The notes under the pieces are model-generated. The model was not told the DNA's origin. It did not search any database and worked only from the letters and a program-made list of their open reading frames with translations. Positions 16,918 to 28,158 of a stretch of 28,829 bases of DNA are shown one piece after another. This DNA is from an uncultured Collinsella sp. (GTDB taxonomy: Bacteria > Actinomycetota > Coriobacteriia > Coriobacteriales > Coriobacteriaceae): assembly GCA_900556605.1 (NCBI GenBank), contig USPC01000012.1, forward strand, positions 1 to 28,829. The letters run 5' to 3'. How positions within the stretch are numbered: position 1 is the stretch's first letter; every line of letters begins with the position of its first letter. The translations under genes and the position numbers were made by a program.

Positions 16918-17014
16918 GGGAACGGATGGGCTCCGGTGGGCTCCGCGGTCCTCAAAACCGTTGCGAGGCGTGCAAAACGTCTTGGATGTGTTCGATTCAC
17001 ATACGTTCCCGCCA
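16918..17014 (+). tRNA. selC: Selenocysteine tRNA (anticodon UCA)
   Basis: 97-nt tRNA-Sec with encoded CCA. The acceptor arm GGGAACG pairs with CGTTCCC, with an eighth G-A opposition and discriminator G. The D arm has a six-pair stem (GGGCTC/GGGCTC with wobbles) and a tight CGGT loop, typical of tRNA-Sec. The anticodon stem GCGGT/ACCGT holds a 7-base loop with TCA at 16952-16954. A long variable arm (GAGGCGT/ACGTCTT) and a T arm with loop TTCGATT follow. The location right after selAB and the unusual geometry make the identification secure although it lies outside any coding frame. Confidence 0.96.
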
Positions 17015-19894: not shown

Positions 19895-19969
19895 CATAAC
19901 TTGCGGTGATATACGGACTGTTTTGCGTCCCAGAACGGCTAATCAGTCCGTATATCACCGCAAGTTATG
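19895..19969. repeat. Long palindromic element, copy 1 (26-bp perfect arms)
   Basis: Left arm 19895-19920 and right arm 19944-19969 are exact reverse complements (26 bp), separated by 23 bases starting TTTTGCG. The stretch 19898-19924 is 23/27 identical to 24041-24067 in copy 2. It lies 18 bases after the gdhA terminator and 80 bases before the hydroxylase operon. There is no T-tract typical of terminators on either strand, and no open frame. Confidence 0.92.
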
Positions 19970-20015
19970 TATGGGTGGGTGGATTTTGTCCTAAAACGGT
20001 GTGCGGCCCCTCGTT

Positions 20016-20024
20016 TGGTACACT
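20016..20024 (+). promoter_or_regulatory. Candidate extended -10 promoter of the hydroxylase operon
   Basis: TGGTACACT (TG-n plus TACACT) lies 24 bases before the first start codon. No good -35 is present. It shares the TTTGGTA context with the selC promoter. Confidence 0.38.
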
Positions 20025-20048
20025 TAAACGTACTGGACAAGTGGAGAG

Positions 20049-20963
20049 ATGGGGGAGAACGTGCTCAAGTTCGGTACCTACGTCCGTGTTGGAAACGCGG
20101 CCGAAGCCTATGAGCTCTTACAGAAGAACCGCAACAACAAGATTGTGGGCGGCGGCATCTGGATGCGCCTTGGTTCGCGTCGCGTGGCGACGGCGATTGA
20201 CCTTTCGGCCTGCGGACTCGATCAGATCGAGGAGACCGAGACCGAGTTTCGCATCGGTGCCATGTGTACCCTGCGCCAGCTCGAGCGCCATACCGAGCTC
20301 AACGCGCTTGTCAACCATGTCTTTGAGTTCGCCGTCCACGATATCGTGGGCGTGCAGCTGCGCAATACCGCCACGGTGGGCGGCAGCATCTACGGTCGCT
20401 TTGGCTTCTCGGACGTTCTCTCCGCCTTTCTCGCGCTCGATTCCTATGTTGAGCTGACGGGCGCCGGTCGCGTGCCGCTTGTCGAGTTCGTGGACATGGG
20501 CTACGTGCGCGACGTTATCGAGCATGTCGTGGTCGTCAAGCACGATTACCGTGCGAGCTACGAGGCCGTGCGCAAGGCCGCGACTGACTTCCCCTCGCTG
20601 AACGTCACCGCCGCCTGGTGGGATAGCACCTGGCACGTCACCGTGGGCGCCCGCCCGCTGCGCGCGACCCTGTTGCAGGGCGAGGCGTGCGGCCTTACCA
20701 ACGAGCATCCTTCCGAGGACGAGCTTCGCGCCCTGGCCGCATCCGTGCGCTCGCTGAGCTACGGCACCAACCTGTGGGGCTCGGCCGACTACCGCCGCCG
20801 CATCTCGGCCCCGCTTGCCGTCCAAGCTGTGCGCCGCGCCGCCGGCATCGAGCTTTCTGCCGCGCTTGCCCGCGAGCTCGAGACCGTGCAGGTCCCCAAG
20901 TTTGCCACGGACGAGTATTCCTGCCGCCGCGTGCCCGGCGTCGATTCTAGCGAGGTGCGCTAA
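20049..20963 (+). CDS. ygfM: FAD-binding subunit of molybdenum hydroxylase (YgfM/CoxM-like)
   Basis: 304-residue FAD-binding subunit of the xanthine dehydrogenase/CO dehydrogenase medium-subunit family. It passes electrons from the Fe-S clusters to NAD or another acceptor. The PCMH-type FAD motifs are visible: NNKIVGGGIWMRLG near the N-terminus, and QLRNTATVGGSIYGRFGFSD with VLSAFLALDSYVEL in the middle. The C-terminal CO_deh_flav_C region ends with ISAPLAVQAVRRA. Both ATG 20049 and GTG 20061 are possible starts; neither ribosome binding site is ideally spaced (GGAG 2-3 bases from ATG, GGGGGAG 3 bases from GTG). The stop overlaps the next start (TAATG), so the two subunits are coupled, as E. 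coli ygfM and xdhD are neighbours. Confidence 0.86.
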   Translation: MGENVLKFGTYVRVGNAAEAYELLQKNRNNKIVGGGIWMRLGSRRVATAIDLSACGLDQIEETETEFRIGAMCTLRQLERHTELNALVNHVFEFAVHDIVGVQLRNTATVGGSIYGRFGFSDVLSAFLALDSYVELTGAGRVPLVEFVDMGYVRDVIEHVVVVKHDYRASYEAVRKAATDFPSLNVTAAWWDSTWHVTVGARPLRATLLQGEACGLTNEHPSEDELRALAASVRSLSYGTNLWGSADYRRRISAPLAVQAVRRAAGIELSAALARELETVQVPKFATDEYSCRRVPGVDSSEVR

Positions 20964-23794
20964 TGGCTGCCAAACTCATCGATCTTTCCTTTACGCTCAA
21001 CGGCCGCAAGGTCAAGGTTCAGATTGCCCCCGACACCATGCTCTTTGCGCTGCTGCGCGAGCAGGGCTGCGCGTCGGTGCGCTGCGCCTGCGAGACCACC
21101 AACTGCGGTCTGTGCACGGTGTGGCTCGACGGCGACCCGGTGCTGAGCTGCTCGGTTCCCGCCGCTCGCGTCGAGGGCCGCTCCGTCACCACGCTCGAGG
21201 GCCTCAAGGCCGAGTCTGAGGCGCTGGCCCGTGCGATGGCTGCCGAAGGCGCCGAGCAGTGCGGTTTTTGCGCCCCCGGCCTCATCATGAACGTGCTGGC
21301 GCTTGCCCGCGCCGCCAAGGAGGACCCGAGCCTTGTTGCCACGCGCGAGGAGCTCTCGCGCCAGCTCGCCGGTAACCTCTGCCGCTGCAGCGGCTATGAG
21401 AGCCAGCTGCGCGCCATCGTCCGCTTCCTCAACGAGTCTGGTGTGCAGGTGGGCTTCGAGATGCCCGAGCTGCCGGTCAACGAAACCAGCTGCGACGGCG
21501 TCACCTACAAGCAGATTACCCACAAGCAGCCCAAGAAGGACTCGAAGGCGTTGCTCGAGGGTCGTCCCGTCTACACGGGCGACATGGTGCCCGCCGGCGC
21601 GCTCATCGTTAAGCTCAAGCGCAGCCCGTATGCCCGCGCCAAGATCCGCTCCATCGATACGTCGCGCGCCCTGAAGGTGCCCGGCGTGGTGGGCGTCTAC
21701 ACCTACGAGGACGTGCCCAAGCGCCGCTTTACCATCGCCGGCCAGAGCTATCCGCAGCCGAGTCCCTACGACCGCCTAATTCTCGAGAACCTCGTCCGTT
21801 ACCAAAACGAGGAGGTGGCGATCGTCGCCGCCGAGACCGAGGAGGCCGCCGACAAGGCGCTCAAGCTCATCAAGGTCGACTACGAGGTGCTCGAGCCGCT
21901 GCTCGACTTTACCCAGGCACTCGATAACGACATCGTGGTCCACCCCGAGGGCGACGTGACCTTTATGTTCCCGCAGGGCGGCGACGTCCCGCGCAACTTG
22001 GTGTGCAGCGGTACCAGCGATTTTGGCGACTTGGACGAGGCCTTCGCCCAGAGCGACATCGTCTTCACCCGCACCTACACCAGCCAGGCCACGCAGACCG
22101 CGCCCATGGAGACCTTCCGCGCCTTCGCGACGACCGACGCGTTTGGGCGCATCTCGGTGACCACCTCTACGCAGGTGCCCTTCCACGTGCGCCGCATGGT
22201 CGCGCAGTCGCTCGATATTCCGCAGTCGCAGGTGCAGGTAATTAAGCCGCGCATCGGCGGCGGCTTTGGCTCCAAGCAGACGGGCTGCTGCGAGATCTTC
22301 GTGGCATTCGTTACCCAGCAGACCGGCCGTCCGAGCTACTGCTGCTACACGCGCGAGGAGACCATCACCGCGGGCAACTCGCGCCACCAGATGCAGATGA
22401 CCGTTAAGCTGGGCGCCATGAACGACGGTACCATCACGGCTATCGACCTGCATACGTTGTCCAACGCCGGCGCGTACGGCGAACATGCCACCACGACGAT
22501 CGGCCTCTCGGGCCACAAGAGCCTGCCCATCTACAACCATGTGAAGGCAAGCCGCTTTAGCTGGGACGCCGTCTACACCAACACCAACCGCGGCGGCGCG
22601 TATCGTGGCTACGGTGCCACCCAGGGCCAGTTTGCCGTGGAGAGCGCTGTCAACGAGCTCGCCGACATGCTGCACATGGACCCCGCCGACCTGCGACTTA
22701 AGAACATCGTGCGCGAGGGCGAGGTCATGCCGCAGTACTACAACGAGAAGCTCAACGCCTGCGCGCTCGACCGCTGTCTGCTGCGCGCGATGGACATGAT
22801 CGGCTGGCGCGACAAGCCGTTGGCCGTGGACCTGGGCGACCGCGTGCGCGCCTTGGGCTGCGCGCTCACCATGCAGGGCTCGGGCATCTCCAACGTGGAT
22901 ATCGCCGGCATCGACATGCGCTTGGAAGAGGACGGCTTCATTACCATCGGCACCGGCGCCACCGATAACGGCATGGGCGTCGACACGATCCTGGCGCAGA
23001 TTGCCGCCGAGGAGCTGGGCGTGGAGAGCTCGCTTATCGTGGTGCGCGGCGTGGACACCGACGTGTCGCCGTTCGATGCCGGCTCGTACGCGAGCTCGGG
23101 CACGTACGTGACAGGTCTGGCAGCCAAGAACGCTGCGACCGAGCTGCGTGAGAAGATCTGCGCCAAGGCCGCCCAGATGTGGGACGTGGACGCCGCCGAT
23201 GTGGTCTTTGATGGCCAGTACGTGCGCCTGTCCGACGAGCGTGCCGCGCGCGAGCAGAACCGCTACCTTACGCTGCGCGACTTTGCCAACCTGTGCGTCA
23301 AGAACATCGCGGGCGGCGACGCGCTGACCTCGCACGCCTCTGCCTGCCTGCCCGTTTCGCCTCCGCCGTTTATGGCCGGCATTGCCGAGGTCGAGGTCGA
23401 CAAGGCCACCGGCAAGGTGACTGTTGTGGATTATGCGGCGGCTGTCGACTGCGGCACCGTGATCAACGAGGCACTCGCGCGCGTCCAGGCCGAGGGTGGC
23501 ATTGCCCAGGGTATCGGCCACGCGCTCTACGAGATTGTCGAGCACGACGATCGCGGCCGCCTGCGCACCGGCAACTTTATGAGCTACAAGCTGCCCACGC
23601 GCCTGGATATCGGCAGCATTCGCGTGGCCTTTGAGCCGAGCTACGAGCCGACGGGCCCGTTTGGCGCCAAGTCGATCGGCGAGGTCGTCATCAACACGCC
23701 GCTCGCCGCCGTTGCCTCGGCCGTGGCACACGCCACCGGCCACCAGGTTCGCTCGCTGCCGATCACGCCCGAGAAGGCCCTGCTGGGGGAGTAG
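20963..23794 (+). CDS. xdhD: Fused [2Fe-2S]/molybdopterin hydroxylase, XdhD-type (candidate selenium-dependent)
   Basis: 943-residue fusion of the small (2x[2Fe-2S]) and large (Mo) subunits of a xanthine-dehydrogenase-family hydroxylase, the architecture of E. coli XdhD (956 residues) and selenium-dependent molybdenum hydroxylases. Plant-type [2Fe-2S]: C43-x4-C48-x2-C51-x11-C63. Second cluster: C100-G-F-C103 and C140-R-C142. The Mo domain shows GGGFGSKQTG (from residue 432), NRGGAYRGYGATQGQF and the putative catalytic Glu907 in GAKSIGE. Two extra N-terminal cysteines (C36, C41) are present. Likely substrates are purines or other N-heterocycles, by family only. Selenium dependence is inferred from the fused architecture and the selenium genes 3-7 kb upstream; the usual companions (ygfK, ssnA, yqeB) are absent here. 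A weak GGCG/CGCC hairpin with GCTTTTT follows the stop. Confidence 0.88.
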   Translation: MAAKLIDLSFTLNGRKVKVQIAPDTMLFALLREQGCASVRCACETTNCGLCTVWLDGDPVLSCSVPAARVEGRSVTTLEGLKAESEALARAMAAEGAEQCGFCAPGLIMNVLALARAAKEDPSLVATREELSRQLAGNLCRCSGYESQLRAIVRFLNESGVQVGFEMPELPVNETSCDGVTYKQITHKQPKKDSKALLEGRPVYTGDMVPAGALIVKLKRSPYARAKIRSIDTSRALKVPGVVGVYTYEDVPKRRFTIAGQSYPQPSPYDRLILENLVRYQNEEVAIVAAETEEAADKALKLIKVDYEVLEPLLDFTQALDNDIVVHPEGDVTFMFPQGGDVPRNLVCSGTSDFGDLDEAFAQSDIVFTRTYTSQATQTAPMETFRAFATTDAFGRISVTTSTQVPFHVRRMVAQSLDIPQSQVQVIKPRIGGGFGSKQTGCCEIFVAFVTQQTGRPSYCCYTREETITAGNSRHQMQMTVKLGAMNDGTITAIDLHTLSNAGAYGEHATTTIGLSGHKSLPIYNHVKASRFSWDAVYTNTNRGGAYRGYGATQGQFAVESAVNELADMLHMDPADLRLKNIVREGEVMPQYYNEKLNACALDRCLLRAMDMIGWRDKPLAVDLGDRVRALGCALTMQGSGISNVDIAGIDMRLEEDGFITIGTGATDNGMGVDTILAQIAAEELGVESSLIVVRGVDTDVSPFDAGSYASSGTYVTGLAAKNAATELREKICAKAAQMWDVDAADVVFDGQYVRLSDERAAREQNRYLTLRDFANLCVKNIAGGDALTSHASACLPVSPPPFMAGIAEVEVDKATGKVTVVDYAAAVDCGTVINEALARVQAEGGIAQGIGHALYEIVEHDDRGRLRTGNFMSYKLPTRLDIGSIRVAFEPSYEPTGPFGAKSIGEVVINTPLAAVASAVAHATGHQVRSLPITPEKALLGE

Positions 23795-23831
23795 CCGAGG
23801 CGACGCAGCCGCCGCTTTTTGCCGAGCCCGG

Positions 23832-23877
23832 GGAAACTGCAGCTCACTTTTCGACTGAATTGTGGGCTGCAGTTTCC
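23832..23877. repeat. 16-bp hairpin downstream of the hydroxylase gene
   Basis: Positions 23832-23847 pair with 23862-23877 (16 pairs including one G-T) around a 14-base loop. The right arm contains the TGCAGTTTCC core that also begins each 62-bp repeat unit. There is no T-tract, so it is not a classical terminator. Confidence 0.75.
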
Positions 23878-24012
23878 GTTTGAGGCCCTTGGCGGAAAGT
23901 GCATCCCGGAATAGGGGCTCAAAACGGGTTGCAGTTTCCGGTTGATGGCTATAGCGGAAGCTGCATCCCATTCCGAGGCCCCAAGCCGGGACACGCTTTC
24001 CGGCGCATGGCC
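23864..24012. repeat. 62-bp imperfect tandem repeat, about 2.4 copies
   Basis: Units begin at 23864, 23926 and 23988, exactly 62 bases apart. Units 1 and 2 are identical at about 42 of 62 positions; the third is partial and degraded (about 25 bases). Each full unit opens with GGGYTGCAGTTTCCG and has GCGGAANNTGCATCCC about 15 bases later, so it can fold on itself. No open frame, tRNA or insertion-sequence feature explains it. Together with the flanking hairpins it fills most of the 431-base gap from 23795 to 24225, which holds no gene. Confidence 0.85.
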
Positions 24013-24040
24013 AGCACCGCCTGACTGCCGAGTCCTACCG

Positions 24041-24109
24041 AAGTTGCGGTGGAATAGGGACTGTTTTGGAGGACTGGAGCCCCAAACAGTCCCTATTCCA
24101 CCGCAACTT
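24041..24109. repeat. Long palindromic element, copy 2 (26-bp perfect arms)
   Basis: Left arm 24041-24066 and right arm 24084-24109 are exact reverse complements (26 bp) around a 17-base loop. It belongs to the same family as 19895-19969. All four base differences in the shared stem segment are matched by complementary changes in the opposite arm. It lies between the 62-bp repeats and tRNA-Leu. Confidence 0.92.
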
Positions 24110-24197
24110 ATGAGATGGGGTGGCGTGCTCTATTGGCTTGCTCTCGTGGTGAGGTCGTGAGCCTGTAAAAGGTGTGCGTGCGCTTGCCGTTCGTATC

Positions 24198-28043: not shown

Positions 28044-28158
28044 GGGGAGGAATGTAGGCCCGATTTTCGTAGATTCCGCACGAGCCGAAGACCACTTAAT
28101 GTGGTCTTCGTGCGAGCCAGGACTTGACCGAGCGAAAATCGGGCCTACATTCCTCCCC
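28044..28158. repeat. Two-tier hairpin in the valS leader
   Basis: The outer arms 28044-28069 and 28133-28158 are a perfect 26-bp inverted repeat. Inside lies a second hairpin: GAAGACCAC (28087)/GTGGTCTTC (28101) with loop TTAAT, extended by CGCAC (28077)/GTGCG (28110) past a 5-base bulge GAGCC. The right outer arm ends 9 bases before the valS ribosome binding region (GGGAG, 28168). T-box landmarks (the conserved antiterminator box, a terminator with T-tract) are not seen. Confidence 0.9.

Follow-up and report, generated by a model that had tools for sequence, protein, structure and literature searches.

The DNA analyzed here, a 28,829-nucleotide stretch of an uncultured Collinsella sp. contig (USPC01000012.1; hereafter the window), carries two members, W1 and W2, of a family of dispersed palindromes. 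The members of this family have a core of nearly constant length, are present at a given site in some relatives and absent in others, lie preferentially behind stop codons, and carry a short word at core positions 13–16 (counted from 0) that matches between the two arms. With a probability of approximately 0.55, W1 and W2 are non-autonomous palindromic DNA elements of the REP/TIR kind that would be spread as single-stranded hairpins by a candidate Y1/HUH enzyme.

The arms of W1 (19895–19920 and 19944–19969) and of W2 (24041–24066 and 24084–24109) each form a perfect 26-bp inverted repeat, as stated in the original prediction made from the letters of the window. The same prediction held that each of the four differences between the two copies is matched by a complementary change in the opposite arm, and a check of the partner bases confirmed this for all four. 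The pair 19900 C-G 19964 in W1 corresponds to 24043 G-C 24107 in W2, 19909 A-T 19955 to 24052 G-C 24098, 19910 T-A 19954 to 24053 A-T 24097, and 19914 C-G 19950 to 24057 G-C 24093. Both elements fold far beyond chance, either as DNA (z of −11.5 for W1 and −14.0 for W2) or as plus-strand RNA (z of −10.7 and −11.6, respectively), and none of 200 shuffled sequences folded as well in any of these cases. W1 is located between a Glu/Leu/Phe/Val dehydrogenase gene and a gene for a molybdopterin-dehydrogenase FAD subunit, whereas W2 has a molybdopterin-binding dehydrogenase gene on one side and a tRNA, followed by a trigger-factor gene, on the other. The features of both elements are listed in Table 1.

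Table 1. Features of the two palindromic elements in the window
Feature	Positions	Strand	Remark
W1 63-bp core (TTGCGGTG...CACCGCAA)	19901..19963	.	
W1 left foot tetranucleotide TAAC	19897..19900	+	commonest in the family is TAAG
W1 right foot tetranucleotide GTTA	19964..19967	-	inward TAAC
W1 left-arm covarying word CGGA	19914..19917	+	core positions 13–16, counted from 0
W1 right-arm covarying word TCCG	19947..19950	-	inward CGGA
W1 loop segment, 23 nt	19921..19943	.	core positions 20–42
W2 63-bp core	24044..24106	.	
W2 left foot tetranucleotide GAAG	24040..24043	+	
W2 right foot tetranucleotide CTTA	24107..24110	-	inward TAAG
W2 left-arm covarying word GGGA	24057..24060	+	GTTC in the G010 ortholog
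W2 right-arm covarying word TCCC	24090..24093	-	GAAC in the G010 ortholog
W2 loop segment	24064..24086	.	all 23 letters identical in the ortholog with the other word

An intrinsic terminator was rejected as a reading of either element, in agreement with the earlier judgment that this is not a normal terminator. The letters directly after the arm are TATGGGTGGG in W1 and ATGAGATGGGG in W2, neither of which is a T-tract, and the spacing to gene ends is unlike that of T-tract terminators. An Rfam search of the window revealed no family at gathering score on W1 or W2; only tRNA-Sec and tRNA reached this score, and the microRNA matches over W2 remained far below their cut-offs. The selenocysteine tRNA gene (RF01852, 64.6 bits) is located at 16918–17010. 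At 28044–28158, two further 26-bp arms separated by 63 nt form a perfect inverted repeat.

The core pattern TTGCGGTG-N47-CACCGCAA was found in 13–42 copies in 22 of the 43 Collinsella genomes, in 1 copy in one genome, and in none of the remaining 20, and the reversed pattern, which served as a control, had no match across all 43. In an order-wide sample, the core occurred in 23 of 297 genomes and in 1 of 107 genera, with no core match in the other 106 genera sampled; the reversed pattern matched one of the 297 genomes, once per strand. The dispersed 63-bp-core family is real and not a chance collection, and the search for further copies in Collinsella genomes that the original prediction called for revealed them in large numbers. 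Copies are scattered through intergenic regions in the Collinsella aerofaciens group, and the family is specific to this lineage.

The length of the element hardly varies. A span of 63 bp was observed for 208 of 213 elements, in loci largely fetched by the 63-bp pattern, which itself imposes this length and the exact 8-base ends. An arm-only search of genome G001 yielded 20 spans, 19 of 63 bp and one of 62 bp, and the arm-only pattern with up to three mismatches identified 27 arms in that genome, with TTGCGGTG intact in all of them. A search with a free loop of 2–30 nt returned 77 stretches, all in Collinsella records, and every listed match spanned 59 nt; this search required GGGAC on both arms, and its loci (L001–L077) are biased at core positions 10–19. 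The outer 8 bases of the core are invariant across the family. In genome G002, which has 36 copies in 2.43 Mb, seven pairs of neighbouring copies are less than 3 kb apart (for example, 122070/123258 and 345158/346469 on contig 1); at least three close pairs enclose one called ORF, and one close pair is identical in sequence.

Comparison of orthologous sites revealed presence/absence polymorphism at both W1 and W2. The orthologous spacer of W1 was read in 21 genomes, 12 with the element and 9 without it. W2 was present in 3 of 22 genomes; 17 of the 22 instead had a short spacer containing a terminator-like, GC-rich hairpin, in one case (L219) without a T-run, and 2 had a different palindrome. 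The element was also absent in four more distant relatives readable at the W2 site. Filled and empty sites differed beyond the element, in that the surrounding spacer changed as well and the boundaries were not clean, and no target-site duplication of the classical MITE kind was readable at them. The W2-orthologous spacers of L204, L211, L221, and L222 carry other palindromes, such as the GGGTAGCTAATTTGGGACGGGGC family, and this spacer seems to be a palindrome hot spot.

Copies were assigned to ortholog groups by single linkage on both flanks, with genomes G004–G012 represented by part of their copies, which resulted in 81 groups, 51 with at least two members and 47 with at least two sequences. 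Among the 65 groups with enough flank, 58 were located between mechanically called ORFs, 6 inside an ORF, and 1 at an edge; the 58 comprised 25 convergent, 25 tandem, and 8 divergent gene pairs. The element often starts approximately 17 nt behind a stop codon. The core was 8–24 nt from the gene end on 32 of 75 gene-end sides, compared with 14.1 expected under uniform placement in the same spacers, a count reached in 0 of 20,000 simulations for a distance window picked after the peak had been seen. T-tract terminators were farther off and more broadly distributed (median 36 nt for 61 gene ends, orthologs not merged). The possibility that the element supplies the stop codon was rejected. Out of 89 filled gene ends, four were compared with an unfilled relative, and these represented three genes (L011 and L085 being the same); two of the three genes kept the stop at the same place in unfilled relatives, and in the third (L142 versus L162) the unfilled relative reached its stop one codon later, inside another palindrome. 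Judging from these three genes, the stop is not contributed by the element, and one gene can be followed by different palindromes.

The positions behind genes are also those expected of an RNA element, that is, a long 3′-UTR hairpin that would end or protect transcripts in both directions and be selected for RNA pairing. The gene-end peak (subject to its window having been chosen afterwards), the share of convergent pairs (25 of 58 placed groups), the RNA fold z below −10, and the more distant and broader placement of T-tract terminators are all consistent with such an element. We nevertheless consider it unlikely. The T-tract is absent, 8 of the 58 groups lie between divergent genes, and no Rfam family reached gathering score on either element. 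No clear sense-strand bias of G-U over A-C was observed with transcription orientation (30 versus 14 in one orientation and 6 versus 11 in the other among tandem groups). Moreover, pairing is not maintained at core positions 8 and 17–22.

A functional RNA stem is usually considered strongly supported when changes in one arm are compensated in the other. In this family, compensation is confined to positions 13–16 and, weakly, to positions 9 and 12, and pairing along the whole stem is not preserved. When the right arms of the 36 copies in G002 were dealt anew, excess matching was revealed at positions 13–16 (0 of 1000 shuffles at each position); at positions 14–16, 94–97% of the copies paired, compared with 49–52% after the arms were reshuffled. 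Position 9 was borderline (53 of 1000), and positions 8 and 17–22 exhibited no excess. For the 19 copies in G003, the corresponding values at positions 13–16 were 17, 0, 0, and 0 of 1000, and that at position 19 was 89 of 1000. Similarly, one member each from 68 groups yielded 0 of 1000 at positions 13–16, 1 of 1000 at position 9, and 28 of 1000 at position 12, with no compensation at positions 8 and 17–22. The G002 and G003 copies and the 68 groups, whose members came from other searches, were free of the selection for GGGAC on both arms. Sliding the partner by 1–3 positions reduced the matching at positions 13–16 from 0.92 to 0.40 or less.

Outside this block, mismatches were left standing. 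Among the 36 copies in G002, position 8 failed to pair in 13, position 17 in 11, and position 19 in 9, and two-sided changes were not in excess; in ortholog pairs with the same loop, one-sided changes amounted to 107 cells, compared with 10 for two-sided changes (167 non-independent pairs). Compensatory change along the stem, the mark of a structured RNA, was not observed across the family. The original prediction that pairing rather than sequence is preserved holds at positions 13–16 and weakly at 9 and 12, but not at the invariant outer 8 bases or at positions 8 and 17–22. Two of its four differences, at 19900 (flank position −1) and 19909 (core position 8), are compensated between W1 and W2 but not in the family. 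Uncompensated differences in further copies, which it had named as grounds for abandoning the idea, were found at most positions but not in the block 13–16.

The words at positions 13–16 are mostly GGGA, CGGA, or GTTC and form two classes, xGGA (G) and GTTC (T). The G class carries AGGGACTG or ACGGACTG and the T class AGTTCCTG, and the motif GGGGWSAS was not found. The 81 group representatives comprised 54 G/G and 24 T/T elements, 3 elements with one unclassed arm, and no G/T hybrids. G/G and T/T representatives (54 versus 34 compared) differed little outside the word except at position 8. Both classes coexist in one genome: among 35 distinct contexts in G002, 20 were G/G and 14 were T/T.

The word also differed between orthologs at one and the same site. 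In 8 of the 51 ortholog groups, the block 14–16 differed on both arms. At the W2 site, both arms carry GTTCC in genome G010 and GGGAC in W2 and in the remaining members, with all 23 loop letters unchanged. Two further groups retain 19 and 15 of the 23 loop letters, and the remaining five retain 5 to 10; because so few loop letters are kept in these five groups, they possibly reflect whole-core replacement or re-insertion at the same spot rather than a switch of the word. In 21 of 241 distinct ortholog pairs, the loops became more similar when one of them was inverted, which could signal template switching; this was given no weight because the loops are near-palindromic and some of the pairs are merged paralogs.

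A palindrome could also remain symmetric by mutation alone, as an inert sequence in which template switching during replication copies one arm onto the other and ectopic conversion acts between copies. Template switching is reported (PMC8794818) to generate compensatory changes of several bases in stems. A series of hairpin units of another family (GGAAA.TGCA..CCC / GGG..TGCA.TTTCC) occupies window positions 23832–23992, and its first unit (23832–23877) differs between the orthologs L198 and L199 by three left-arm changes, each compensated in the right arm. This unrelated hairpin favours arm copying, and the two identical copies located 1.2 kb apart in G002, where G003 has two different ones, are as conversion predicts. 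However, if template switching were acting alone, repair would be expected throughout the stem, which is at odds with the mismatches at positions 8, 17, and 19 among the 36 copies in G002, and the predominance of one-sided changes in same-loop ortholog pairs (107 versus 10 cells in the 167 non-independent pairs) also argues against it. We regard this explanation as quite improbable.

The flanks of the core carry a conserved foot. Among 167 distinct flanks, G occupied position −1 in 151, A position −2 in 161, A position −3 in 115, and T position −4 in 114; farther out, both flanks were C-rich and G-poor. The 162 feet of the 81 groups included TAAG 60 times, TCAG 19 times, and GCAG 15 times. GTAG and GTGG, the hairpin foot of the REP/REPIN GTAG class, accounted for 1 and 0 of the 162 feet, respectively. 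The left and right flanks did not pair in excess over chance at positions −1 to −6 and −8 to −10; position −7, one among ten positions examined, paired above chance (11 of 1000 shuffles). A on both sides at position −3 and T on both sides at position −4 were underrepresented (94 and 14 of 5000 shuffles, respectively, at or under the observed count), hinting at an element with a left and a right end. TAAG on both feet exhibited no such deficit (2045 of 5000).

Genes encoding Y1 transposases were found in 37 of the 43 Collinsella genomes, with 85 matches, of which 44 loci were examined, including at least three duplicated places and 14 loci with only approximately 300 nt of flank. No Y1 gene with the element on both sides was seen among these 44 loci, and the associated REP-type transposase proposed for a check in the original prediction was not found flanked by copies; two of the 44 loci hold one copy each. 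L246 has one complete copy approximately 2 kb from a Y1 gene. At L229 (genome G026), a complete 63-bp element at 2226–2288 is separated from an IS200-type transposase gene by a few hundred bases, and L230, whose gene is of like length and score, carries no element. Several types of Collinsella Y1 genes (RAYT/TIRYT-like) are flanked by their own GGGAC-core hairpins, and the G class shares this GGGAC.

One gene type, designated type-i (70–100% identical to the L243 protein), was detected in 21 of the 22 genomes rich in the element and in 0 of the 21 genomes with 0–1 copies; it was not detected in G031, a genome with 21 copies. Because this co-distribution represents one clade and one event, it is weak evidence. 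The type-i proteins have Y1_Tnp and helix-turn-helix matches, and the helix-turn-helix is kept. In 17 of 21 genomes, serine takes the place of the catalytic tyrosine, the position of which was assigned from the Y---NP motif in PMC6006769; a histidine of the HUH motif is missing in 11 of 21, and all frames are open. The serine forms have a median dN/dS of 0.30 (132 pairs), which indicates purifying selection. In ten genomes the type-i gene adjoins another dispersed repeat, TTTGGGACAAA...TTTTGTCCC. Type-i was set aside as the cognate transposase since its candidacy, although suggested by co-distribution, is weakened by the broken catalytic residues and the different adjoining repeat. Judging from these sequence features, type-i Y1 (for example, at the L240, L246, and L257 loci) is possibly a domesticated protein. 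The second repeat family, TTTGGGACAAA-ACTACTGATTA-TTTTGTCCC, follows the type-i gene directly in ten genomes but is not confined to this place; it is found at approximately 2150–2200 (complement) of L243 and at dispersed places in 13 of the 43 Collinsella genomes.

A double-stranded operator, in which the arms would be half-sites of a dimeric DNA-binding protein and need the same word in both, would agree with the invariant ends, the fixed spacing, the identical words in both arms, and a Y1-derived helix-turn-helix protein that lacks the catalytic tyrosine in 17 of 21 genomes yet keeps its frame open (median dN/dS 0.30 among the serine forms) as a domesticated binder would, but it is very unlikely, since half-sites of more than 20 bp would be long and two word classes in one genome (G002) would call for two proteins or for one indifferent to the word.

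No earlier report of the 63-bp repeat was found in the open-access literature searched, and the family was compared with known systems. Pseudomonas REPINs reportedly consist of two inverted halves, each a GTAG-tagged hairpin, are extragenic, and are proposed to be mobile in trans; the present element is one long hairpin instead. Many intergenic copies per genome, as in REPs and REPINs, were found (13–42 exact-ended copies in 22 genomes), and copies flanking a RAYT gene (a REPtron) were not found in the 44 Y1 loci examined. Long REPs with a double foot, associated with TnpA-REP (RAYT) subclass 2.4, carry a conserved tetranucleotide at the 5′ foot that recurs in reverse-complement form at the 3′ end, as described in PMC6006769. 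Like these, the element is a long hairpin with a conserved foot on both sides and is dispersed between genes. Unlike these, its foot is TAAG-like rather than GT[AG]G, it has a matched internal word, and no associated tnpA-REP gene was found among the 44 Y1 loci.

The TIRs of TIRYT genes (subclass 2.1) are characterized, in portions of PMC3733652 and PMC6006769, as moderate-copy inverted repeats of Y1 enzymes with a C-terminal helix-turn-helix, and the repeat core is given there as GGGG[AT][CG]A[CG]. The GGGAC carried by the G class is similar to this core, and several Collinsella Y1 genes have GGGAC hairpins on their flanks. In contrast to TIRYT repeats, the 63-bp element was not found flanking such Y1 genes with a C-terminal helix-turn-helix, type-i adjoining TTTGGGACAAA...TTTTGTCCC, and the GTTC class is without the core. 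In appearance the element is akin to double-foot REPs and to TIRYT repeats, yet it fits the definition of neither. In the IS200/IS605 family, a four-letter guide located 5′ of a hairpin pairs with the cleavage site, and a change in the guide changes the site, as an excerpt of PMC8266576 describes. The two words of the present element, by contrast, both lie inside one stem.

A non-autonomous element of the REP/TIR kind would account for the anatomy, namely a 63-bp core of nearly fixed length, a TAAG-like double foot, and C-rich outer flanks. Its single-stranded hairpin would be handled in trans by a Y1/HUH enzyme (TnpA-REP/TIRYT-like) that reads the invariant ends, and copies behind stop codons may survive since they would be least harmful there. 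A match of the word between the arms would be required for propagation, and this requirement may be why xGGA and GTTC coexist in single genomes without hybrids. The word could switch in place by ectopic conversion from another copy and subsequent transfer to the second arm; given the compensated change in the unrelated hairpin beside W2, arm copying may join the second step.

The matched word needs an explanation beyond structure, which could be a guide/target rule, a dimer half-site rule, or conversion combined with arm copying. Under the first of these, the word at positions 13–16 would form a guide/target pair around the inner hairpin (CTG...CAG), with the guide directly 5′ and the site directly 3′ of it, and the enzyme would be indifferent to the word itself. 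We hold this reading to be doubtful. If it were true, one genome would contain interchangeable address words that are switched in place, as between W2 and G010.

The family is suggestive of mobile DNA whose two arms carry an internal matching code rather than of an ordinary RNA structure. Because compensation is limited to a short word and other variable stem positions drift, the family allows three causes of compensated change to be told apart, namely pairing, sequence recognition, and mutation by arm copying. Its coexistence with a tyrosine-less Y1 protein under purifying selection points to possible domestication, and the family provides a natural test of the guide/cleavage-site rule of single-strand transposition.
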